NCBI GenBank assembly: GCA_021811435.1
Contig: JAJZOR010000002.1
Location: forward strand, 62,001 to 126,000
DNA from: Microcaldota archaeon
GTDB taxonomy: Archaea; Micrarchaeota; Micrarchaeia; Micrarchaeales; Micrarchaeaceae
DNA: 64,000 nt
Direction: 5' to 3'
Shown here in pieces: positions 36,469 through 54,493 of the stretch (position 1 is its first letter; every line of letters begins with the position of its first letter). The notes beneath the pieces are model-generated. The model was not told the origin of the DNA, searched no databases, and was given only the letters and a program-made list of their open reading frames with translations. Position numbers and translations under genes: made by a program.

Positions 36469-36541
36469 GGGGAGTTACGCTAACCTGGCAGACTTCCAGC
36501 CTTGGGCGCTGGATATCCGAGTTCAAATCTCGGACTCCCCA
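36469..36541 (+). tRNA. tRNA-Pro (TGG anticodon), integration target
   Basis: 73 nt. Acceptor GGGGAGT/ACTCCCC, anticodon stem CCAGC/GCTGG around CTTGGGC (anticodon TGG), T arm CCGAG-TTCAAAT-CTCGG and discriminator A. The D stem is weak, with two poor pairs. Its 3' part, from 36482, is repeated exactly at 45537, marking it as the attachment site of the downstream element. Confidence 0.92.
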
Positions 36542-36543
36542 CT
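36482..36543 (+). repeat. attL, 62-bp att core within tRNA-Pro
   Basis: From AACCTGG in the D loop of the tRNA to CCCCACT just past the discriminator. It is identical to 45537-45598; the bases flanking both copies differ. This copy keeps the intact tRNA. Confidence 0.93.
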
Positions 36544-37434
36544 GACGACAAATCGACGACAAAATCGGTGTTCAGACACGAGCCTTGTCGAGGGAGCGAA
36601 GCAGACGAAGGAGCGGAGAAAGCTCGAAAACCGGAGCTCGAAAGGCTGCGCAGCGAACTCGCGCATCTGCTTCCCAGGATGGCCAAGCACGAGATAGAAG
36701 AACTGACAACGCAGATAAGGCAGGTCTACTTCAAGCGCTTCCACAAGAGGAAGACGCCGAAGTACGGCTCGCTGAACAAGGGATTCACGAGCCAGGAGTT
36801 GCAGGCGTTCTTCCGAGTCATAGATGACGAGCGTCTCAAGTTGCTCTTTGCTTACCAGTCACAGCTGGGGTTAAGGATCGGCGAAGTTTGCAGGCTGCAC
36901 CTGGGCAGCATCAACTTCAAGACTAGGGAATTGACCCTCAAGACCGAAAAGGCAAGAGTAACGGACTCGATGATCATACCTGCGCCGCTCTTCGCTGATA
37001 CCATAACCTTCATAAGAAAGTACGAAAACGAGATAGAGAAAGCCGGTGGCTACATCTTTTTCAAGCTGGCTAAAAGCAGTAGGGAGGCGCTTTTCATGGG
37101 GCCGAACTACGTTAGGGCGGCGTTCAGGCGCTACGTGATCAAAGCTGGACTGGACTTCACCTATGACATAAGCGATGAGTCAATGGAAGGCAGGGACGTC
37201 AGGAGCCTGCACAGGCTTACCACGCACAGTCTCAGGCACTACGCGATAACCAACTTCTCCAAGACAACGAATGGCAACGTGGTGCTTACCTGCCGGTTCG
37301 CCAGGCACGCCAGCCCGGAGACCACCATGACGTACATAAACACTAGCAAGGAGGAGTTGTACGATGGCATCGAAGGGGCCGCATCTGGAATAAGCCGTAT
37401 TGAAAGCTTAAAGAGGCGTTTCGAGAAAAGATAG
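36544..37434 (+). CDS. Tyrosine recombinase, catalytic part (intC of partitioned SSV-type integrase)
   Basis: The frame is open leftward through the att core and the tRNA. Catalytic residues are Arg in LGLRIGEVCRLHL, HSLRHYAITNF (H-x-x-R), RHASPETTM and Tyr in TMTYINTS. The natural start is at 45515 at the other end: in the circular form 28 codons from there continue in frame into this segment, giving about 324 aa. While integrated, expression would need an internal start such as GTG 36568 or ATG 36679, or would be lost. The coiled N-terminal helix begins near residue 45. Confidence 0.88.
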   Translation, partial: DDKSTTKSVFRHEPCRGSEADEGAEKARKPELERLRSELAHLLPRMAKHEIEELTTQIRQVYFKRFHKRKTPKYGSLNKGFTSQELQAFFRVIDDERLKLLFAYQSQLGLRIGEVCRLHLGSINFKTRELTLKTEKARVTDSMIIPAPLFADTITFIRKYENEIEKAGGYIFFKLAKSSREALFMGPNYVRAAFRRYVIKAGLDFTYDISDESMEGRDVRSLHRLTTHSLRHYAITNFSKTTNGNVVLTCRFARHASPETTMTYINTSKEELYDGIEGAASGISRIESLKRRFEKR

Positions 37435-37479
37435 CAAACGTTTTTATATCTATTAATACAATATTAATGTGGTGTTAAT

Positions 37480-37728
37480 ATGGTTAAGGCTATAGTAAAT
37501 ATAAGCGACGAAGCAAATAGGATCATAAACATAATCAAAGCCGAATACGGTCTAAGGGACAAGTCAGAAGCGATAAATCGGATGGCGGAGGACTACGAGG
37601 AGCTGGTTTTTGAGCCCAAGGTGAAGGCTTCTTATTTGAAGAAACTTGATAGGATAAGGAAAGAGCGCACCGTTAAGGTAGGTACCATCAAGGACTTTGA
37701 AAAAAAGTACGGCTTAGATAAACCGTGA
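37480..37728 (+). CDS. DUF2683-type RelB-like antitoxin
   Basis: 82 aa. It begins MVKAIVNISDEANRIINIIK and continues YGLRDKSEAINRMAEDYE, the archaeal DUF2683 pattern with a ribbon-helix-helix-like N-terminus and a charged C-terminal toxin-binding tail. A TATA-like TTTTATATC (37441) lies about 40 bp upstream. The toxin gene that follows after 5 bp is broken, so the antitoxin is now an orphan. Confidence 0.8.
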   Translation: MVKAIVNISDEANRIINIIKAEYGLRDKSEAINRMAEDYEELVFEPKVKASYLKKLDRIRKERTVKVGTIKDFEKKYGLDKP

Positions 37729-37733
37729 GCTTT

Positions 37734-38005
37734 ATGGCAGAGCCATATAAGCTTGAGTTAAGGGAGCATGTAGCAAAGACCTTCAAGAAATTGGAAAGAA
37801 GGACAGGCGGCAGCTAATGGCGGTAAGGAAGAAGCTTGGGGAGATACTTGAGGATCCGGAAAGATTCAAGCCTCTGCATCCGCCAATGCAAGGTTTGCGC
37901 CGGGTCCACATAATGAAGAGCTTCGTACTTACTTATTCCATCGACAGAGGAACGCATACCGTGATTGTTTAGGACTACGCCCATCATGACGAGGTTTACG
38001 GATAG
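37734..38005 (+). pseudogene. RelE-family toxin pseudogene (frameshift and nonsense)
   Basis: It begins MAEPYKLELREHVAKTFKKLER, then shifts frame near 37800 (a run GAAAGAAGG appears one A short) and continues DRRQLMAVRKKLGEILEDPE, RFKPLHPPMQGLRRVHI and SFVLTYSIDR. A TAG replaces a codon that is normally Glu before DYAHHDEVYG. The RelE fold residues (RRVHI, SFVLTY) are recognisable. Two independent lesions indicate real inactivation. It pairs with the intact upstream antitoxin. Confidence 0.85.
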
Positions 38006-38123
38006 ATACCCATGCCTTTATAATCAGCCAGGCCATGGGGCTCAAAGCCAGAATCTTCAAGCAGACTAAGGCTTCCAGGAACGCTCCAAACAGGCCAAAA
38101 TAGCGAAAACCAAAAAGATGGTT

Positions 38124-38450
38124 TTTACTTCACATGCCTTGGCAAAACTTCGAAACCATGTGAAGTAAACGCTAGACGACAAGAAAAAACGCCAGAGTTT
38201 TTGTCGACGAGCTTACTTCCCATCAAAGAGAGGCAGTTTCAGGTGAAGAAACCATGTGAAGTACGCAAAGTCAAAAATATGGATTTTACTTTATCTGGTT
38301 CACAACTTTATCTGATTCCGCGACTTTACCTGATTTTAGAAAACAGATAAAGTTGGACTTCCGATGACAAGGCCAAAAAGGCGGTTTTCCTGTCGTCGAG
38401 CGACTTTACATTGGTAATATACCGCACTCAGATACAGAAACAGATAAAGT
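38124..38450. repeat. Iteron-like array of ACTTYAYMTG decamers
   Basis: ACTTCACATG at 38127 and its complement at 38157 and 38253; ACTTTATCTG at 38288 and 38305, ACTTTACCTG at 38323, and complements CAGATAAAGT at 38344 and 38441. The three middle copies are spaced 17-18 bp. 38124-38136 and 38157-38169 form a perfect 13-bp inverted repeat. All share ACTTYAYMTG. Such arrays typically bind replication-initiation, partition or repressor proteins. Confidence 0.75.
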
Positions 38451-38500
38451 CGCCCTGCGCAGCTTCGCAGCCTCTGGGGCTGCTCGCTGCTGCGGGCGAC

Positions 38501-38745
38501 CAAACCTTCTTTCCGGAAAGAAGGTTTGCCAAGAAAACGCAGTTTTTGGGCTTAGCCCGCTAAGCCCAGAGCCGATTTCGTCCCCCACCCGAAATCGGCC
38601 CCCAGGCTGCGTTTGCCCCCACCCAAACGCAGCCGCTTAAGCCCCAGCTAGGCGCCTTCGGTTGCGAAGGCTAGCTCAGCTTGCAGGTACCTTATACTGC
38701 CTAGATGGCTAGGCTTGCAGCGTGTTGACGCGTTAGCCCCACGTG
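38501..38745. repeat. Cluster of perfect hairpins with conserved module
   Basis: In order: a 28-bp perfect palindrome (38501-38528); GGGCTTAG/CTAAGCCC (38548-38567); GCCGATTTCG/CGAAATCGGC with a C-rich loop (38571-38599); an 11-bp stem GGCTGCGTTTG with loop CCCCCACC (38605-38634); and AGCTAG/CTAGCT plus CCTTCG/CGAAGG (38646-38676). On the minus strand the loops are G-rich. The block 38697-38745 (CACGTGGGG...CTGCAAGCCTAGC on the minus strand) and the fourth hairpin recur at 53226-53303 in the tRNA-Leu element. Confidence 0.85.
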
Positions 38746-38820
38746 AAATCCGAAGGATGAACGTGCTGGGCGTGGCTAAAGGAGAGTATTTAAAGTTTTG
38801 ATCCATAAGCTACGTAAAAG

Positions 38821-39771
38821 ATGAAAAGGATAAGCGGTTATTCTATGTCAAATAATTGGATGCAGATGCTTAATCAATTCGTTCTGCAATCGGATACCAG
38901 GAGCTTTAAATTATCTGCTTATCCTAAGGAATGGAGCGGGTTGAAATTAAAAATATCTTTCGGACAGGGCCGACCGGCACGGATACCCTGGATAGCGTTC
39001 ATAGCGCCTGAAATGCAAGTTAGCAGGGGCTATTACCCGGTTTATCTTTATTATAAAGAATTAGAGACATTGATACTGGCTTATGGGATAAGCGAAACTG
39101 CGGAATTTGATAAGAGCTGGCCGGCTGAAATATCGACATCGGCGCAGACCATTTCCGCTTACTTTAATAAAGATGTTCCGAGATATGGCGATTCTTTTAT
39201 TTTCAAAGCGTATAAAATAGGTAAAGATAACGGCAATGTACATTATACATACGCTGATACCGGGCAGGAGGCGACTGAGAAGGATTTGGAATCAAACCTA
39301 AACACTATTTTGGAGTACTATAAGCGGATTGTATCATCACCTAATTCTGCGTCTTCGCAGATAGAAAGTCAGGGAAGATTTTATATGGAGAAAACGCTTG
39401 AGAACTTTATTATTGAAAACTGGGAGACAACGGAATTTTGTAAAAATTACGATTTAATAATAGAAGACGGAGATATAGTAAGCCAACAATATCCAACGGA
39501 CATAGGACCTATAGATATTTTAGCGCAAGATAAGAAAAGTAAAAGTTTTGTTGTAATTGAACTCAAAAAGAATCAAACGAGTGATGATACCGTAGGCCAG
39601 ATCGCTCGTTATATGGGATGGATAAAAGAGAAGAAAGGGGATAACAACGTTAAAGGAATAATAATAGCCGGAGCTTATGATCAAAAGCTTGACTACGCGC
39701 TAAAAATGATTCCGAATGTAGAAGTTTTCTTATACGAAGTGAATTTTAAGCTAAGGGAATTTAAAAGGTAA
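38821..39771 (+). CDS. McrB-N (DUF3578)-like domain fused to NucS/DUF91-type nuclease
   Basis: 316 aa. Residues about 20-110 (ISFGQGRPARIPWIAF...GYYPVYLYYKELETLIL) match the McrB N-terminal domain pattern (GqG..a.iPWIa / GyYvVyLf), a DNA-reading module in some modification-dependent enzymes. Residues about 190-316 resemble the NucS/DUF91 nuclease domain: PTDIGPIDILAQDKKS, FVVIELKKNQTSDDTVGQI, RYMGWIKEKKG. The D...E-x-K catalytic set is present. A likely restriction nuclease; the target modification is unknown. AT-rich, promoter TATTTAAAG. Confidence 0.75.
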   Translation: MKRISGYSMSNNWMQMLNQFVLQSDTRSFKLSAYPKEWSGLKLKISFGQGRPARIPWIAFIAPEMQVSRGYYPVYLYYKELETLILAYGISETAEFDKSWPAEISTSAQTISAYFNKDVPRYGDSFIFKAYKIGKDNGNVHYTYADTGQEATEKDLESNLNTILEYYKRIVSSPNSASSQIESQGRFYMEKTLENFIIENWETTEFCKNYDLIIEDGDIVSQQYPTDIGPIDILAQDKKSKSFVVIELKKNQTSDDTVGQIARYMGWIKEKKGDNNVKGIIIAGAYDQKLDYALKMIPNVEVFLYEVNFKLREFKR

Positions 39772-39867
39772 TATTATTATAGGAAATTGGACGGCTATAA
39801 GTACATTGTTAGGTATAATAAGTAAATCCGAAAGTTAAATAGAGTATAAGAGTTAATAGCGGTAACT

Positions 39868-41238
39868 ATGGACAGCTTTACCAAAAATATGGTAGTGGAT
39901 AGCTCATGGTCTTTTAGTGATTTGACCAAGAAAGAAACTAGCTATGCGAGCCATGGATACCATAAATATCCCGCTAAATTTATACCACAACTTGTAAAGC
40001 GCCTTATCCTCGAATATTCGAGAGAAGGCGACCTTGTCCTTGATCCATTCGGTGGCTGCGGTACTACCTTGGTTGAGGCCAAACTCAATAATAGGAACAG
40101 TATAAGCATAGATGTTAATGATGCTGCTATTTTGATAGCGTCTGCCAAGGCAGAGGCGATAGACCCTGCGATTTTAGAGACTAATAATAAATTGATTTTA
40201 GAACGGATAGCTAAAAGTAATGACCATAAAGATTATTACGCAAATGCAAATAGTAGATTAAAATATTGGTTCAAAAGAAAACAGTTTAATAAATTGTTTA
40301 AAATTTACAATGAAATCCAGAGGGAATCCGATAAAAATATAAAGACATTTTATAACTGTTGCTTCTCAGATATCCTAAAAAACTGTTCTAAGTGGTATTC
40401 AAAAAGTATAAAGCCTCAGCGTGATTCTAGCAAAAAAGACGTGGAGCCGGCGCACGCATTTATTGAGCATTTGAATTACATGACAAAGCAGAACTTGGAA
40501 TATTATAATTTATTAGATAAGTCCATAAACATCGTTGAATCCTCAGTAAAAAAGGCTGATGCTAGGAAGACCATGCTGCCTAAAAATTCTGTCGATTTGA
40601 TAATAACATCACCTCCATACGCTATATCTTATGAATATGCAGATATTCACCAACTTTCTCTTCTTTGGTTTGGCTCAACTAAAAACATAGCCGGAATTAG
40701 AAAAGATTACATTGGTACTGCATCAAAAAGAAAAGCCATAAAAAGCGCTCGAATACGCAGTACCAGAGGACTTAATACTATAAAATCTCTTGAAAGGCTT
40801 GATACTGGTCTAGCTAACCAGATAGCTAACTATATTGTAGATCTGGATCTTACTTTTAGAGAGATGCACCGTGTATTAAAGCATGGCAAAAAAATGTGCA
40901 TAATACTCGGAGATACCAGATATTTAGGAATAAAAATACCCAATACCGATATGGCCATTGAATTAATAAATAATGCGGGTTTTAATATAAATAAAGTGAT
41001 AAAGAGGAAAATTTGTTCTAAGATATTCACGCCATATAGAGATTCTACGGGCAAATTCTCAGATGGTGAAAGTGGCAAGAAAAGGAGAATTTATCAATAT
41101 GAATACATAATAATAGCTAAAAAGAAATTGCTTTTAATGGATTGCGGGGTGCGATTCTTTACATATATTTATAATAAATTTCTAATTAGTTTGCAAGAAG
41201 CAGGTAACTTGGCACTTTGGGATAAATATGACAATTGA
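39868..41238 (+). CDS. Site-specific DNA methyltransferase (N6-adenine or N4-cytosine)
   Basis: 456 aa. The AdoMet motif I region LDPFGGCGTTLVEA comes first (near residue 60), after HGYHKYPAKFIPQL; the catalytic motif IV TSPPYA is near residue 252. The long insert between them probably holds target recognition. The SPPY form is common in N4-cytosine enzymes but does not settle the base. It overlaps the GHKL gene by 11 bp, so the two are translationally coupled, as in restriction-modification operons. Confidence 0.88.
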   Translation: MDSFTKNMVVDSSWSFSDLTKKETSYASHGYHKYPAKFIPQLVKRLILEYSREGDLVLDPFGGCGTTLVEAKLNNRNSISIDVNDAAILIASAKAEAIDPAILETNNKLILERIAKSNDHKDYYANANSRLKYWFKRKQFNKLFKIYNEIQRESDKNIKTFYNCCFSDILKNCSKWYSKSIKPQRDSSKKDVEPAHAFIEHLNYMTKQNLEYYNLLDKSINIVESSVKKADARKTMLPKNSVDLIITSPPYAISYEYADIHQLSLLWFGSTKNIAGIRKDYIGTASKRKAIKSARIRSTRGLNTIKSLERLDTGLANQIANYIVDLDLTFREMHRVLKHGKKMCIILGDTRYLGIKIPNTDMAIELINNAGFNINKVIKRKICSKIFTPYRDSTGKFSDGESGKKRRIYQYEYIIIAKKKLLLMDCGVRFFTYIYNKFLISLQEAGNLALWDKYDN

Positions 41239-43729
41239 AGATTCAGGGAAAGAAATAGATAAAATTAATGTTCACTTAAGTTACAGGATTATTGAGTTAT
41301 TCTCAAAGGGATTATATTCTAGCCCAAATAAGGCATTTGAAGAATTAGTTTGCAATGCTTATGACGCCCTTGCAGATAAGGTAGCAATTTATGTACCTAG
41401 CGATACCTCGACGTCTGATGCAACTATGTGGATATGTGATAATGGTGAGAGCCTAGATGAAAATGGTTTAAAAGAACTTTGGAGAATAGGAGAATCGAGC
41501 AGGCGTGAGGGCGATGAATTAAAGAAAGCTAGGATACCGATAGGAAAATTTGGTATAGGTAAACTAGCGACGTATATTTTAGCAAGGAAATTAACACATA
41601 TCTGCAAAAAAGATGGGCGCTATCTTGCAGTAACCATGGATTATGGTAGGATTCCTACAGTAGCTTCAAACAATCCACTTATTTTAAGTGAACGCGAATT
41701 AACGGAGAAAGAAACTATAGATTTACTGTCCCCATTAATAAATAAGTATAAAACGAATTTCTTAAATTTTAATTTGTGGGGTGCGAATGCAGAAAAATCA
41801 TGGACATTCGCTATAATGTCGGATTTAACCACAAAAGCAAGCGAACTAAAACTAGGCAGACTGAGCTGGGTTTTAAGCACATCTTTACCATTAAGTCCTG
41901 CATTTAAGTTATTCTTCAATGGACAGGATTTGGAATCAAGCAAGATAAAAGAAAAAATCAAGAATACATGGATAATCGGCCAAAATGATTTAATTGCTAC
42001 TAAATTTAACGATTACAAGGAGGGAACTTACTTAGGTATGCCGTGTGTAAATTTACCACATCTGGAAAATGTCTACGGGCAAATTGATTTATATGAAGAT
42101 TCATTGCTTAAAGGAAAAGCAAGCGAGCATGGTAGAAGCCACGGAATATTTTTGATGATAAGAGGCAGGTTAATAAATCTTGATGATCCCCTTTTGGGCA
42201 TGTCTCCATTATCACATGGGGTTTTTAATAGAGTTAGGATAGTGATTCATGCAGACGGCTTAGATAGCTATTTATCATCGACTAGAGAGGCGGTTCAAGA
42301 GTCTAACGCACTTATCGATCTGCGACATTATATTCAAAGAAAATTCGAAGAAGTAAAAGAGTATTATTTCAATCAACTCAACAACGAAGCACTAGCAAAA
42401 AGCGCATCGTATAAGGTCTCGCAAACATCTACGGCGATGTCAAGGCAGCCTCTGGTCACCGTTGCTAAAAAATTCTTGAATGAAGAGATAGAGGCACCAT
42501 TCTTAATTGAAATACCGAATAGACTAACTGAGCCTCAGAAAGGAGTTTTGATATCCAGACTTGAAGAGGATGTGACTAGTGAAAAGGGCATAATAAAAGA
42601 CGTAATAATGCAAGCAGTTGATATCGACGCGCCAATTGCTAAATTGGATATGGAAACAGGACAAGTAAAAATCAATATTTTACACCCATTTTTCGTAAAT
42701 TTTATAAGTGAATTTGGGGGTTCGACTTTGCCATTTGAGCTAATAGCTATAACTGAGATACTAACCGAGGCTTTAATGATTGAAAACGAGATACCGCAAG
42801 AAAAAGTAACAGATATAATGTCTTCAAGAGATAAATTTCTTAGGCAGTTAGTATTTAGTGATAGACCGAAGGCGCCGGCAGTTGCACAATTAATAAAAGA
42901 GGCAATTGCAGATCCAACCGGGCTTGAAAAGGCAGTCGCATACGCATTCAATTCCTTAGGATTTGAAACTACACCAATTGGAGGAAAGGGAAAACCTGAT
43001 GGAAAAGCGGTGGCATGTATAGGGCTAACCGGGTCAGGCGGCACAAAAAGGGATTATTCAGTGCTTTACGAAGCAAAAAGCACCTCTAATAGTACAGTTA
43101 GCGCAAAAGATTTGAATATTGCTGGTGTAGTGAGACACAGAACAGATTATGGCGCGGACTATTCTGTTATTGTTGCAATAGATTTTGATGGATCGATGGA
43201 TGATAATTCTGCCGCGTCAAAAGAGGCGAGAGCCCAGAAAGTTTCATTGATTAGAGCGAAGGATTTGATAGCACTGGTACTTTTAGCATCACCAAAAAAG
43301 CTCGGGTTCTTGGAATTTAAGGACTTATTTGCAAATAATTTTACAGTTATAGAAACATCTAAATGGATTAATGATTTAAATAAAAAAACTGTAGATATAG
43401 GCCCTATAAGAGAGGTACTTGAGGTAACATTGAAGTTACAAAAAAGCGATATGGAACCACCAGATTTAAGTGGATTAAGACATAATAGTAGCGTCTTAAA
43501 TAAATATTCAAAAGATGACTTGCGTTCTTTGATTCAAAGCGTTAATAGATTAGTCGGAAACTTAATTTCATTGGATGGCGAGAAGGTCAGCATACAATCT
43601 TCTCCAGACAGAATAATGGATTTATTACAAACTACCGTGACAAGGGAGATACCCCCAGAATATACGGAGTTGTATATAAAGACATTCAGCGATACTATAC
43701 CAAAGAATAAAAAACCCGATGAAAAATAA
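41228..43729 (+). CDS. GHKL (MutL/Hsp90-like) ATPase fused to PD-(D/E)XK nuclease domain
   Basis: 833 aa. Bergerat-fold motifs: EELVCNAYDAL (residues about 38-48), CDNGESLDENGL (about 70) and GKFGIGKLATY (about 105). Near residues 564-640 a restriction-like domain appears: LEKAVAYAFNSLGFET, KPDGKA (Asp about 590), LYEAKST (E-x-K about 615-617), then IAGVVRHRTDYGADYSVIV. A helical C-terminus follows. GHKL ATPases related to MutL/MORC have been predicted in restriction-modification systems. It probably acts as the ATP-dependent restriction partner of the methyltransferase. Confidence 0.82.
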   Translation: MTIEDSGKEIDKINVHLSYRIIELFSKGLYSSPNKAFEELVCNAYDALADKVAIYVPSDTSTSDATMWICDNGESLDENGLKELWRIGESSRREGDELKKARIPIGKFGIGKLATYILARKLTHICKKDGRYLAVTMDYGRIPTVASNNPLILSERELTEKETIDLLSPLINKYKTNFLNFNLWGANAEKSWTFAIMSDLTTKASELKLGRLSWVLSTSLPLSPAFKLFFNGQDLESSKIKEKIKNTWIIGQNDLIATKFNDYKEGTYLGMPCVNLPHLENVYGQIDLYEDSLLKGKASEHGRSHGIFLMIRGRLINLDDPLLGMSPLSHGVFNRVRIVIHADGLDSYLSSTREAVQESNALIDLRHYIQRKFEEVKEYYFNQLNNEALAKSASYKVSQTSTAMSRQPLVTVAKKFLNEEIEAPFLIEIPNRLTEPQKGVLISRLEEDVTSEKGIIKDVIMQAVDIDAPIAKLDMETGQVKINILHPFFVNFISEFGGSTLPFELIAITEILTEALMIENEIPQEKVTDIMSSRDKFLRQLVFSDRPKAPAVAQLIKEAIADPTGLEKAVAYAFNSLGFETTPIGGKGKPDGKAVACIGLTGSGGTKRDYSVLYEAKSTSNSTVSAKDLNIAGVVRHRTDYGADYSVIVAIDFDGSMDDNSAASKEARAQKVSLIRAKDLIALVLLASPKKLGFLEFKDLFANNFTVIETSKWINDLNKKTVDIGPIREVLEVTLKLQKSDMEPPDLSGLRHNSSVLNKYSKDDLRSLIQSVNRLVGNLISLDGEKVSIQSSPDRIMDLLQTTVTREIPPEYTELYIKTFSDTIPKNKKPDEK

Positions 43730-43862
43730 TTTACTTGGCTATTTGATAAGGACTCCTTAAGCTACTGTTCGGAACTAGCCATGTCCGAACGATATGTGCT
43801 TATATGTCCTATAGCGGCGATTTAAGATCATTCATAAATTCTTTTCTATTCCAGATCGAATC

Positions 43863-44099
43863 ATGAAATTGGATAAGTATTACGTAGTAACCGCAGTACA
43901 CCCAAATCTATGTTTTATAGTAGAGCGTAAGATTTTTACTACCAAGAAAGAGGCTCTTTCATACGCTAGAAGCCTGGCAAAAGAAACATTTTATGAGATA
44001 GATGTTACATCCGATAAAGGTAGGATAGGTTCAGCAAACTTATATTGGTTGCCCAGAGCGGGCGTATTGTTTACCGAGCCCGAATTAATTGATCCTTGA
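43863..44099 (+). CDS. Small hypothetical protein of the element
   Basis: 78 aa, starting MKLDKYYVVTAVHPNLCFIV and ending FTEPELIDP. It looks like a compact alpha/beta protein (KKEALSYARSLAKETFYEI helix). No family recognised. It is the first of three short same-strand genes between the GHKL gene and the DpnI-like gene; the next start overlaps or closely follows it. Confidence 0.55.
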   Translation: MKLDKYYVVTAVHPNLCFIVERKIFTTKKEALSYARSLAKETFYEIDVTSDKGRIGSANLYWLPRAGVLFTEPELIDP

Positions 44100-44118
44100 A
44101 TACCGCTTAGGTGTACCT

Positions 44119-44274
44119 ATGGAAGCATTGACAAAAAAAGAAGCCAGAGCAATAGTGAAATATGTTGTAAAGTTGGAGGAGCGCTTAGATAAATTTGGGC
44201 TACAATATCCAACTAAAGGTATGGCTGCAAGCAAAAGCATTGAAAAGCTAATAAAATTTGTGTATAATCCTTAG
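44119..44274 (+). CDS. Small hypothetical protein of the element
   Basis: 51 aa from ATG 44119 (MEALTKKEARAIVKYVVKLE); a start at 44089 overlapping the previous gene is possible. Mostly helical and basic (KYVVKLEERLDKFG, KSIEKLIKFVYNP). Unknown function; it might be a small DNA- or protein-binding factor of the element. Confidence 0.45.
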   Translation: MEALTKKEARAIVKYVVKLEERLDKFGLQYPTKGMAASKSIEKLIKFVYNP

Positions 44275-44304
44275 AACAATTGGGCTACATACGAGGAGGA
44301 TAAA

Positions 44305-44493
44305 ATGGAAATAAGCAAAAAGGAAATAAAGGAGCTACGCAATTACTGCGCTAAAATGGCAAAAGAAGCTGGAAAGAAGTCTGGCAAGTATTTCAACATG
44401 GCGAAGAACGACTTAGTAGAAAACTATTACGAAGGCCAGTCAGAAGCTTACGAAGATGTCAAGAAAAAATTAGAATTGCTTGGAGGCAGCTAA
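44305..44493 (+). CDS. Small hypothetical helical protein of the element
   Basis: 62 aa with a strong SD site GAGGAGGA 7 nt before ATG 44305. Sequence is charged and helical (ELRNYCAKMAKEAGKKSGKYF, then YEGQSEAYEDVKKKLELLGG). No family recognised. The SD quality argues that it is a real gene. Confidence 0.6.
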   Translation: MEISKKEIKELRNYCAKMAKEAGKKSGKYFNMAKNDLVENYYEGQSEAYEDVKKKLELLGGS

Positions 44494-44536
44494 GAGGTAA
44501 GAAACTATATAAGGGTTCTAATCCTAATCTGTCTCT

Positions 44537-45352
44537 ATGGATCTTGATTTATCTCACTATTATAAGCAAGTAATGGCTTCGTACAAGAGCCCATCACAGT
44601 TGGCTAGAAAAGTGACAGAAAAATGGGCCAGTGATAATTTGTATTGTCCGAAATGCGGACGAAGCCTGAATCAATGGTCCACCAATACGCCAGTCTATGA
44701 TTTTTATTGCGGCCATTCGGATGAACGAATTATAATAGTTCCTGAGCATTTGCCAAACAACATCGAAAATTTTCAGTTAAAAAGTCAAAAGCACCAATTT
44801 TCCAATTATGTACTTGGTGGTGCATATAGGCCCATGGTAGCTAGCCTAAATGCAGGCAGGCACCCATCGTTAATGCTCTTGTATTATCATCAACAGAAAT
44901 TTGAGGTAGAAGACGTAACACTAATCCATAGGCTATCGATTACGCTAAGTTGCATAAAGGCGAGGAAACCGTTAAGTTCGCAAGCAAGGCGCAGAGGATG
45001 GCAAGGTTGCGTCATACTCCTAGATCAAATCCCTGCGGCGGGTAGAATCGAAGTCGTAGAAAATGGCAATATTTTAGAAAAAGCTGCCGTCATAAAGAGC
45101 TGGAATGGTGTTACGAAAATACTACAAGGCGACCTTACGCAAAGAGGATGGATAGCAGATATGATGAGGTGCATTGACAGACTACCAGCAAATTTTACCC
45201 TTTCTGATGCATATGAGTTTGAAACAGAATTGGCCAAGCTTCATCCTGAAAACATGCACGTAAGACCAAAAATAAGGCAGCAACTACAAGTACTGCGAGA
45301 TCGTGGTTACATCCGATTTATTAAACCAGGACGATATCAAAAGATAATCTAG
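44537..45352 (+). CDS. DpnI-like methyl-directed restriction endonuclease, altered active site
   Basis: 271 aa with similarity to DpnI along its whole length: QLARKVTEKW, YCPKCGRSLNQW, VYDFYC, LKSQKHQFSNYVLGGAY, RKPLSSQARRRGWQGCVILL, TQRGWIADMMRCID, and the C-terminal winged helix IRQQLQVLRDRGYI. DpnI cuts G-m6A-TC. Here the catalytic set reads D55...Q80-x-K82 where DpnI has D...E-x-K. One zinc-finger Cys (after C58) is gone, and about 15 extra residues (near 62-76) separate the finger from the strand. Activity is therefore uncertain. Last cargo gene before attR. Confidence 0.85.
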   Translation: MDLDLSHYYKQVMASYKSPSQLARKVTEKWASDNLYCPKCGRSLNQWSTNTPVYDFYCGHSDERIIIVPEHLPNNIENFQLKSQKHQFSNYVLGGAYRPMVASLNAGRHPSLMLLYYHQQKFEVEDVTLIHRLSITLSCIKARKPLSSQARRRGWQGCVILLDQIPAAGRIEVVENGNILEKAAVIKSWNGVTKILQGDLTQRGWIADMMRCIDRLPANFTLSDAYEFETELAKLHPENMHVRPKIRQQLQVLRDRGYIRFIKPGRYQKII

Positions 45353-45514
45353 GTGTTCAGGGCCGCATGGTTTCGCACAGTAGTTTTTATAAAACCACAG
45401 TGCGCGGGGACATGCGTTTCTGAACACCGAACGCTTTTATACCGTAGAAGCGTAAGATCATGTGTTCGAAAACCCGGGAATTTTGCTTGTACGCTAAAAT
45501 GCTGAGGTGCTAAG

Positions 45515-45625
45515 ATGGAGCTAGAAATCGACGACAAACCTGGCAGACTTCCAGCCTTGGGCGCTGGATATCCGAGTTCAAATCTCGGACTCCCCACTTT
45601 GGCATGGGGATTGACGTTCACATAA
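45515..45625 (+). CDS. Integrase N-terminal fragment (intN of partitioned SSV-type integrase)
   Basis: ATG 45515 follows the SD site GAGGTG (45503-45508). The frame MELEIDDKPGRLPALGAG runs through the att core, then leaves the element and stops at 45625. In the circular form the same frame continues from the core into 36544, joining the catalytic part at 37434. The codon phase matches exactly in both copies. This fragment is the diagnostic leftover of SSV-type integration into the integrase gene. Confidence 0.85.
   Translation: MELEIDDKPGRLPALGAGYPSSNLGLPTLAWGLTFT
45537..45598 (+). repeat. attR, 62-bp att core (tRNA-Pro 3' part)
   Basis: Identical to 36482-36543. It lacks the tRNA 5' acceptor strand, so it is not a functional tRNA. 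GACGACAAA precedes it here and follows the core at attL, so the att core in the circle is flanked by that direct repeat. Confidence 0.93.
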
Positions 45626-52991: not shown

Positions 52992-53029
52992 TGCATGTGG
53001 TGAGATTTGAACTCACGAACCCGCTAAGG
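52992..53029 (-). repeat. Distal att-like copy of tRNA-Leu 3' part
   Basis: 31 bp (52999-53029) are identical to 54415-54445, covering the T arm and variable arm of tRNA-Leu; over 38 bp there are two mismatches in the acceptor part. The acceptor is mutated, so it is not a tRNA. It marks the far end of a small tRNA-targeted insertion. Confidence 0.8.
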
Positions 53030-53225
53030 ATTTGAGAGTGTCTTCTAGCTGTTTTACGCCCATATTTCTAGCCATATTTCACACCAAAAAACAACATAAA
53101 TTTCTAAGCCAAAGCAGGTTCATCTGAACCATAAATTATTGCTGAGCAAGGTATATAAGCGACTAGCGTTCAGACTGACATGTTTAAAAATATATAAAAT
53201 ACAGCACGTTCATAACTTCGTTCCT

Positions 53226-53303
53226 CACGTGGGCTGGCGACCCAACGGCCTGCAAGCTAGCAACCTAGCAAGCGGTTGATTTTGCGGGGGGTCAAAATCA
53301 GCC
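53226..53303 (+). repeat. Conserved module with G-loop hairpin (copy 2)
   Basis: CACGTGGG (53226-53233), CTGCAAGC-TAGC-A-CTAG (from 53250), then a 34-nt hairpin unit at 53270-53303: AAGCGG, stem TGATTTTG/CAAAATCA and loop CGGGGGGT, then GCC. It aligns without gaps to the complement of 38605-38638; the differing stem positions change as pairs. Confidence 0.8.
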
Positions 53304-53482
53304 TTAACGCCTCCATGTCCTACAAAGTAGCCGCAGCAACCGTAGCTCGCCGTGCGACATCCAAAGATGTCTTAAAGGCGGTCGTAGGCTGCTAGGTCAG
53401 AGGACTTAACATAGTAGAAACATGAAGAGTGTAGAGAAAGGCTTATATATCTATTAGGGTATATATTTATTAGGTCTTAATT

Positions 53483-54043
53483 ATGCAACTGCAGAAAGAG
53501 GTCGTTCATTATCCTACGCTTAAGACGATATTGGCTATAGAAGAAGTAGTTAAGAAGGCCAACAACCCGGTTAGCAGGAACCAGATATTGGCTCGATTGC
53601 AGACGGGTGTAATGCGTTCTACGCTGAACCTTGCGCTTGACTACATGGAGAAGCGTGGTATGGTGCTTGAAACCAAGAAGGGCTTTATTTGGACATTCAA
53701 TCCTAGCAAGAAGCTAGAGAATGTGGAAAAGGAGAGTTTGGGGGCGATGAAGGGCAAAGACTCTCCAGAGATCCTAGCCATCAAGAGAAGGATAGAGCCA
53801 ACTCTGCGTAGTAACGATGTTAAGAAAGCTGCAGTATTCGGGTCGTTTGCTACTGGAACTGCAGGAAAAAACAGTGACGTTGACATTCTCGTCGAGTTTA
53901 CAAAGCCTAAGGGATTGGGTTTCGTTTCTTTGAAACTTGCGCTCGAAAAGAAACTAAAACGGCGGGTGGACCTGCTTACGTATGCCTCAATCAACCCGCA
54001 TATAAGAGATAGTATACTCAAAGAAGCGGTGGAGATCCTATGA
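53483..54043 (+). CDS. MNT-type nucleotidyltransferase antitoxin with N-terminal HTH (MntA-like)
   Basis: 186 aa. Residues about 1-80 form a winged helix (PVSRNQILARLQTGVMRSTL, then DYMEKRGMVLETKKGF). Residues about 100-186 hold the minimal nucleotidyltransferase motif GS-x10-DVD (GSFATGTAGKNSDVDILV) plus KKLKRRVDLLTY. MntA enzymes AMPylate and silence HepT toxins; the HTH suggests autoregulation. TATA-like TATATATTTATTAGG lies upstream. It overlaps the HEPN gene by 4 bp (ATGA). Confidence 0.87.
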   Translation: MQLQKEVVHYPTLKTILAIEEVVKKANNPVSRNQILARLQTGVMRSTLNLALDYMEKRGMVLETKKGFIWTFNPSKKLENVEKESLGAMKGKDSPEILAIKRRIEPTLRSNDVKKAAVFGSFATGTAGKNSDVDILVEFTKPKGLGFVSLKLALEKKLKRRVDLLTYASINPHIRDSILKEAVEIL

Positions 54044-54378
54044 AAAAGGATCCTGAAATTTTTCTAAAGCACATTCTGGAGAGTATAGAATACATAAATG
54101 AATATATGGGATTAAAATCAGAACAGGACTTTTTGGATTCGGTGGAAACACAAGATGCAGTTATGCGACGGCTGGCGGTTATAGGAGAGGCAGCAAAAGA
54201 TATCCCAGTCCCTCTGAGAGAGAAACATGCTGGAATTGAATGGAAGGCCATAATCGGACTTAAGAATGTGCTGGTGCATGAATACTTTGGAGTAGACATT
54301 GGAGTTATATGGCATATAGTTAAGGATGACCTGCCCAACCTGAAGTCTGAGATATCGGAGATGTTAAAAGAAGTATGA
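54040..54378 (+). CDS. HEPN toxin of DUF86 type (HepT-like), catalytic Arg replaced
   Basis: 112 aa four-helix HEPN protein: YINEYMGLKSEQDFLDS, AVMRRLAVIGEAAKDIP and IIGLKNVLVHEYFGVD. The RNase motif R-x4-H-x-Y is K-x4-H-x-Y here (KNVLVHEY); the Tyr that MntA modifies is present. Lys could weaken or abolish RNase activity. It is paired with the upstream MNT gene. Confidence 0.87.
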   Translation: MKKDPEIFLKHILESIEYINEYMGLKSEQDFLDSVETQDAVMRRLAVIGEAAKDIPVPLREKHAGIEWKAIIGLKNVLVHEYFGVDIGVIWHIVKDDLPNLKSEISEMLKEV

Positions 54379-54407
54379 AAATTCGCTTTTTCGATTGGGA
54401 AAATAGA

Positions 54408-54493
54408 TGCAGGGGGTGAGATTTGAACTCACGAACCCGCTAAGGGAACGAGCCCTGAACCCGTCACATTTGACCAGTCTTTGCTACCCCTGC
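54408..54493 (-). tRNA. tRNA-Leu (CAG anticodon)
   Basis: 86 nt, class II. Acceptor GCAGGGG/CCCCTGC, D arm with TGGTC loop, anticodon stem ACGGG/CTCGT around TTCAGGG (anticodon CAG), variable arm CCC-TTAGC-GGG, T arm GTGAG-TTCAAAT-CTCAC and discriminator A. Its 3' part is duplicated at 52999, so it is the target of the small element. Confidence 0.93.

Follow-up and report, generated by a model that had tools for sequence, protein, structure and literature searches.

The window analysed here, a stretch of 64,000 nucleotides from an archaeal contig of the Micrarchaeales (JAJZOR010000002.1), contains two elements inserted at tRNA genes; their presence had been proposed in a sequence-only reading of this DNA and was borne out by repeats of the tRNA genes. 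Element 1 (36469–45596) starts at a tRNA-Pro (TGG) gene on the forward strand (36469–36542, ARAGORN), the 3′ 60 nt of which (36482–36541) recur as an exact repeat on the same strand at 45537–45596, the right end of the element. Its tyrosine integrase gene (36502–37434, forward strand), identified by Pfam (Phage_integrase, 3.8e-12) and by alignment of the integrase family, has a start overlapping the tRNA gene, and the Pfam scan matched its product to the general integrase profile PF00589 only. With an integrase gene beside an intact tRNA gene and a direct repeat at the far end, element 1 has the make-up of a tRNA-targeting integrative element. Its cargo encodes a McrB_N/NucS-type nuclease, a DNA methylase, an HSP90-like ATPase with an Mrr-type domain and a DpnI homologue, and positions 38821–45352 form a compact restriction/defence cluster in which the gene for the DpnI homologue is next to that for the DNA methylase. 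Between the integrase gene and the folding module described below, a DUF2683 gene (37480–37728) is followed by a frameshifted RelE-type toxin frame (37732–37970), and the two look like a decayed toxin-antitoxin pair. A further stretch at about 38015–38060, IISQAMGLKARIF, resembles the C-terminus of the element integrase family and adjoins the word units of the module, as if an earlier integrase had preceded the present integrase and toxin genes.

Element 2 (53000–54493) is bounded by a tRNA-Leu (CAG) gene on the reverse strand (54408–54493, ARAGORN) and by a repeat of the 3′ part of this gene at its left end (53000–53029, forward strand). It is one of the integrase-less mini-elements that retain the module, a 1.4-kb one at 53–54.5 kb; at the integrase position it has a nucleotidyltransferase gene (53483–54043) and a HepT-like gene (54040–54378), both on the forward strand and assigned by Pfam, and it consists of only the module and this gene pair. 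In four congeners compared in search of an empty site, the genes flanking element 2 were found, and the tRNA-Leu gene is not syntenic. Elements 1 and 2 therefore have the layout of attachment repeats and the module in common, and no common gene.

The module is about 350–700 nt in size and opens, on its own strand, with a head of three hairpins, in the order P1 (CC-AG-CACGT/ACGTG-GG), a linker, P2 with a CAAC loop, a CTGCAAG linker and P3. P3 is followed in many copies by an insertion with an extra hairpin and then by the G-loop hairpin, 3′ of which lies a large, GC-rich hairpin whose internal loop is GNA/GNA; the 3′ part consists of one or two units of 10-nt words inverted around a middle hairpin. 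Module 1, on the reverse strand, has a head made up of P1 (CCC-AG-CACGT/ACGTG-GGG; 38737–38770), recognised by the covariance model and by covariation, P2 with the conserved CAAC loop (38720–38731), supported by covariation and loop conservation, and P3 (38699–38714), supported by covariation. Beyond the head are the G-loop hairpin (38605–38634), defined by comparison of hairpins across copies, a second G-loop hairpin with an identical loop and a different stem (38571–38600), and a region (38449–38528) comprising a AAACCTTCTTT hairpin (38501–38528) and the large GC-rich hairpin (38449–38500). Word unit 1 (38281–38451) contains ACTTTATCTG in inverted copies around a CGACGACA hairpin, and word unit 2 (38120–38263) contains ACTTCACATG in inverted copies. 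In module 2, on the forward strand, P1 (53202–53236) is followed by P2 and P3 (53238–53269; P2 at 53238–53252 with one pair lost, P3 at 53256–53269), the G-loop hairpin (53274–53303), a large hairpin with a paired GTA/GTA internal loop (53327–53392) and a decayed word unit (53393–53440) in which GTGTAGAGAAA is the remnant of a CATGTAGAG word.

The sequence-only reading had drawn attention to the G-loop hairpins, and we reproduced the gapless alignment on which it was based, with 26 of 34 positions identical between the reverse complement of 38605–38638 and 53270–53303. The hairpin fold and its 8-nt G-rich loop are present in both copies, and two stem pairs are altered on both sides, as expected of the compensatory changes it had reported; one stem pair of the second copy is T-G. 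The upstream block that it had noted as shared corresponds to P1–P3, and the equal orientation of the two modules relative to the tRNA gene extends to 42 of the 44 tRNA genes that lie no more than 5 kb 3′ of the 69 copies studied. With E-values of 4e-23 and 1.5e-15 under the covariance model, the resemblance of the two window copies is not due to chance. The unit, on the other hand, had been drawn too small: the hairpin is real, and it is part of the 350–700 nt module rather than a structure standing by itself, the second G-loop hairpin at 38571–38600, the large hairpin and the 3′ word units having gone unmentioned.

To establish the distribution of the module, DNA searches from a window copy were followed by a covariance model built on the three head hairpins (P1-P2-P3, 16 pairs). 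Of the 164 genomes of the host's order, 56 contained copies, about 100 in all, and the 137 genomes searched elsewhere in the phylum contained none. The host genome contains nine copies, and the family spans 30 genera; 69 copies with flanking sequence were used for alignment and context counts. The further copies brought much more covariation, and they are tied to integrated elements and are not unrelated host repeats. Above the gathering score, an Rfam scan of 36–55 kb found two tRNAs only, leaving the module unmatched. No match to the module was obtained in phage, plasmid or IMG/VR records, the core of the words was not found in IMG/VR contigs or phage records, no circular contig was found among the short contigs checked, and no description of the module was found in the literature searched. 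The module is real, widespread within one order and undescribed in the sources searched; its copies form a family of folding DNA, specific to the order and hitherto without a name, located beside the integrase gene of small tRNA-inserted elements. Variants of the arrangement were also seen. At L007 (G000:C1) and L147 (G070:C20) not only are G-loop hairpins inverted, but the whole large hairpin also has the opposite orientation to that in other copies; at L093 (5237 and 5380) two P1–P3 heads stand in tandem in one module, with shared upstream AAGGAACCT repeats; and at L089 8721 (G000:C22:33720) a lone decayed head lacking hairpins and words adjoins apparent ribosomal-protein and elongation-factor genes.

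Association of the module with the elements is firm. In 41 of the 69 copies an integrase gene of a single tyrosine integrase family lies on the 3′ side of the module, with the 3′ end of the gene towards it and the start of the gene typically within the target tRNA gene. The targets include tRNA genes of the Leu, Glu, Ala, Gln, Pro, Lys and Val types, and in many cases direct repeats of the 3′ part of the tRNA gene at the far side mark the ends of the element. The integrase is the only protein found in most elements, the remaining genes being varied cargo, and no transfer or capsid gene recurs among the cargo clusters. Serial repeats of one tRNA end with separate blocks of cargo were seen at L081 (G003:C12), L136 and L111, which represent islands of tandem accretion. 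Genes resembling IS110-type DEDD recombinase genes, named by eye from sequence, occur in or beside the module at L024 (G002:C2; about 58.4 kb), where the insertion falls in a word unit, and at L102 (+1227 to +2243 from the head).

Across the 69 aligned copies, 93.3% of the pair cells of P1–P3 were standard pairs, and both sides had changed in 199 cells compared with 51 ± 10 in shuffles. The covariation score was 0.458, against 0.130 in shuffles and at most 0.046 in all controls with slid partners, the slid control being partly biased because the 69-copy alignment was fitted to the model; an alignment of 22 copies that was not fitted led to the same picture. The stems vary, with positions in P2 accepting all four Watson-Crick pairs, and the loops and linkers are conserved: the P2 loop is C in 99%, A in 91%, A in 99% and C in 88% of the 69 copies, and two linker A positions are conserved in 99% and 100%.

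A selected RNA fold is expected to tolerate G-U far more than A-C. The mismatches in P1–P3 comprised 18 G-T and 23 A-C alongside 964 Watson-Crick pairs, whereas the tRNA stems of the same genomes, used as a control, contained 56 G-T and 2 A-C (Fisher p 1.9e-9 versus the module helices). Counts for the well-aligned P1 and P2 only were 13 G-T and 18 A-C, and those for the G-loop hairpin, the arms of which were picked by a Watson-Crick score penalising both mismatches equally, were 4 and 5. Among 33 distinct loop hairpins, the loop is G-rich in 23 and C-rich in 10; the clearest C-rich cases show the exact inverse of the loop on an unaltered stem, which fits a flip of the whole hairpin. Since the loop is inverted this often, the G-rich sequence to which the sequence-only reading had pointed, real as it is in the window copies, is not a strict signal. 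The closing loops of the large hairpin are mostly GNA triloops (GAA 11, GCA 2, GTA 1 and GGA 1; n=25), and GNA loops are described, according to references cited in PMC6479982, as forming unusually stable DNA minihairpins.

As G-T and A-C are equally rare and many hairpins are inverted, selection has apparently acted on folded DNA, and the module likely functions as folded DNA and not as RNA. A structured non-coding RNA of the element, whether regulating the integrase through convergent transcription or acting as a packaging-type RNA, would also fit the rich covariation, the conserved loops and linkers and the strand-constant head, as well as the symmetric purine-rich internal loops, which RNA uses too, and the 3′ side of the head facing the 3′ end of the integrase gene; a TATA-like box is even present upstream in some copies. 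We nevertheless consider an RNA unlikely, given the mismatch counts, the tolerance of inverted hairpins, the GNA triloops, the lack of an Rfam match and the fact that no TATA box occurs at a constant distance upstream of the head across the 69 copies. Selection on a folded nucleic acid, with an origin as one option, had been the proposal of the sequence-only reading and is upheld, whereas the regulatory RNA that it had also listed is disfavoured. The symmetry of G-T and A-C is stronger evidence against a selected RNA fold than for a selected DNA fold, because inversion or template switching could itself yield symmetric changes, and part of the covariation could stem from these processes instead of selection. 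In the extreme case, the hairpins would be unselected palindromes that template switching or inversion keeps perfect and that hitch-hike with the elements, and the frequent hairpin inversion and the symmetry fit such a mutational process equally well. This is the least probable of the explanations, since conservation is 88–100% at many unpaired positions of the loops and linkers over the 69 copies of a family spread over 30 genera, and P1–P3 retain their order and orientation while the stems vary. The symmetry of G-T and A-C mismatches also provides a way to tell DNA-level from RNA-level covariation.

The 3′ units contain words of class A (CTCTACATG), class B (ACTAAAGACC) or several words of class C (ACTTTATCTG, ACTTGGAACG and others), arranged as inverted pairs around spacers of 10–12 nt, and in some modules two classes stand in tandem. 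Words of classes A and B occur almost exclusively inside the unit and not at attachment sites, whereas CTTTATCTG gave scattered background matches. The integrase tree clusters by tRNA target, and word classes are mixed within its clades, Leu-type integrases being found with words A, B or C and Glu-type integrases with A or B; it follows that the integrase does not dictate which words are present. Members of this integrase family that occur in another family of the class carry no such module on the 3′ side. Among these module-less relatives (L177–L191), no tRNA was called in the 1.5-kb flanks, L192 with a tRNA-Ile being the exception. Orphan word units, where their setting was discernible, belonged to decayed copies or had tRNA fragments nearby, and no helper was seen adjacent to them. 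Overall, the module appears to be a separable part that is exchanged between elements.

The position and form of the words invite comparison with an accessory recombination site, in which the words would serve the integrase as arm sites or be bound by a second tyrosine recombinase, with the hairpins acting as structure-specific, attC-like sites. The constant position beside a tyrosine integrase gene, the inverted word pairs with spacers as in recombinase core sites and the accretion of cargo in tandem at one tRNA gene are in line with this; we regard it as quite unlikely, as the word class is independent of integrase phylogeny, words of classes A and B hardly occur outside the unit, the ends mapped by tRNA repeats lie 1–2 kb or more from the module, and related integrases outside the order occur without it. 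Arm-type sites of the integrase in particular were rejected because word sequence does not covary with the integrase and because of the word positions. The module might instead be a packaging or capture signal for a helper virus of these archaea, with word classes matched to different helpers. Elements devoid of a recurrent transfer or capsid gene, words that vary independently of the integrase and the possibility of two word classes in tandem would be explained in this way, yet neither the module nor the word core was present in IMG/VR contigs and phage records and no helper was found, making such a signal even less likely than a recombination site.

An origin of copying or transfer best explains the retention of the module in integrase-less mini-elements, its probable DNA fold and its exchangeable words. 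We propose, with a probability of roughly 40%, that the module is a cis-acting DNA of small tRNA-targeting elements which works as folded single-stranded (or cruciform) DNA for copying or transfer and is served in trans; both this function and the trans factor are inferred. Upon excision and copying or transfer of the element, the module would fold as single-stranded (or cruciform) DNA. The head, with P1–P3 and the CAAC loops, the G-loop hairpin and the large hairpin, would be a strand-specific structure through which the displaced single strand is recognised and converted, in the manner of a single-strand origin, and the 3′ units, with their element-specific inverted 10-nt words, would be the site of binding and initiation for the trans factor, comparable to the variable binding site of a double-strand origin. 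The trans factor could be a host protein or come from a helper outside these genomes. As a candidate origin, the module, in which no nick site was recognised, resembles rolling-circle origins in its arrangement of a variable inverted repeat beside a conserved hairpin. Several results weigh against an origin: no circular contig and no viral or plasmid record with the module was found, the elements widely share no protein besides the integrase, no Rep is evident in common among the cargo clusters, and Rep_trans was absent from the 164 genomes in a search with a working control. The initiator searches covered Rep_trans and Rep_1, that for Rep_1 being uninformative for want of such a control, so that a Rep of another family, such as archaeal Rep-Arvir or another HUH type, may exist. 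A bolder version, about which we are doubtful, is that the module is a new kind of cis-acting device, a large folded single-stranded DNA platform with interchangeable units of address words that recruit the trans factors of different helpers. If this were true, tiny elements with or without an integrase would use one or two words each for copying or transfer in ultra-small archaea.

To our knowledge, the replication and spread of mobile elements in DPANN archaea are poorly known, and the tRNA-inserted elements here have no recognisable replication or transfer gene common to them, the integrase aside. A cis module that is found across an order and can be detected with a covariance model offers a handle for finding such elements, its address words are possible predictors of helpers, and the module is a test case for copying driven by single-stranded DNA.

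Among known systems, the closest in layout are bipartite origins. An archaeal rolling-circle origin consisting of a variable inverted repeat and a conserved hairpin has been described for the pleolipovirus SNJ2, which uses Rep-Arvir and in which the DNA structure of the origin is essential (PMC13107129), and bipartite origin logic is also known from bacteria (PMC5714925). The module shares with SNJ2 and with bacterial double-strand origins of the pT181 type a variable inverted-repeat site adjoining a conserved hairpin, and its elements, like SNJ2, integrate by means of a tyrosine integrase. It differs from both in being far larger, in having repeated 10-nt words in multi-box units, and in lacking a recognisable Rep gene in the elements or, for Rep_trans, in the genomes. 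In the Sulfolobus plasmid pRN1, the origin is a non-coding stem-loop whose loop contains GTG; additional small hairpins have been proposed as its single-strand origin (PMC3869888). Non-coding stem-loops and small hairpins are features that, as described, pRN1 and the module have in common; the pRN1 origin lies 3′ of its own replication gene and has a different architecture. Integron attC sites, including those of archaeal integrons (PMC9668308), similarly combine single-stranded DNA folds, tyrosine recombinases and small cargo cassettes. In attC, crossover takes place within the folded site, whereas tRNA repeats at a distance from the module mark the ends of the elements studied here; there is mostly one module per element, and its words are independent of the integrase. 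Begomovirus DNA satellites, as outlined in PMC12193555, share only the origin with their helper; site-specific integration sets the present elements apart from satellites so described, as does a helper that was not found, and what they have in common is small size and a retained replication signal that relies on a trans factor, here inferred. Compared with these systems, the module is a novel variant of the structured DNA that acts in cis in integrative elements.
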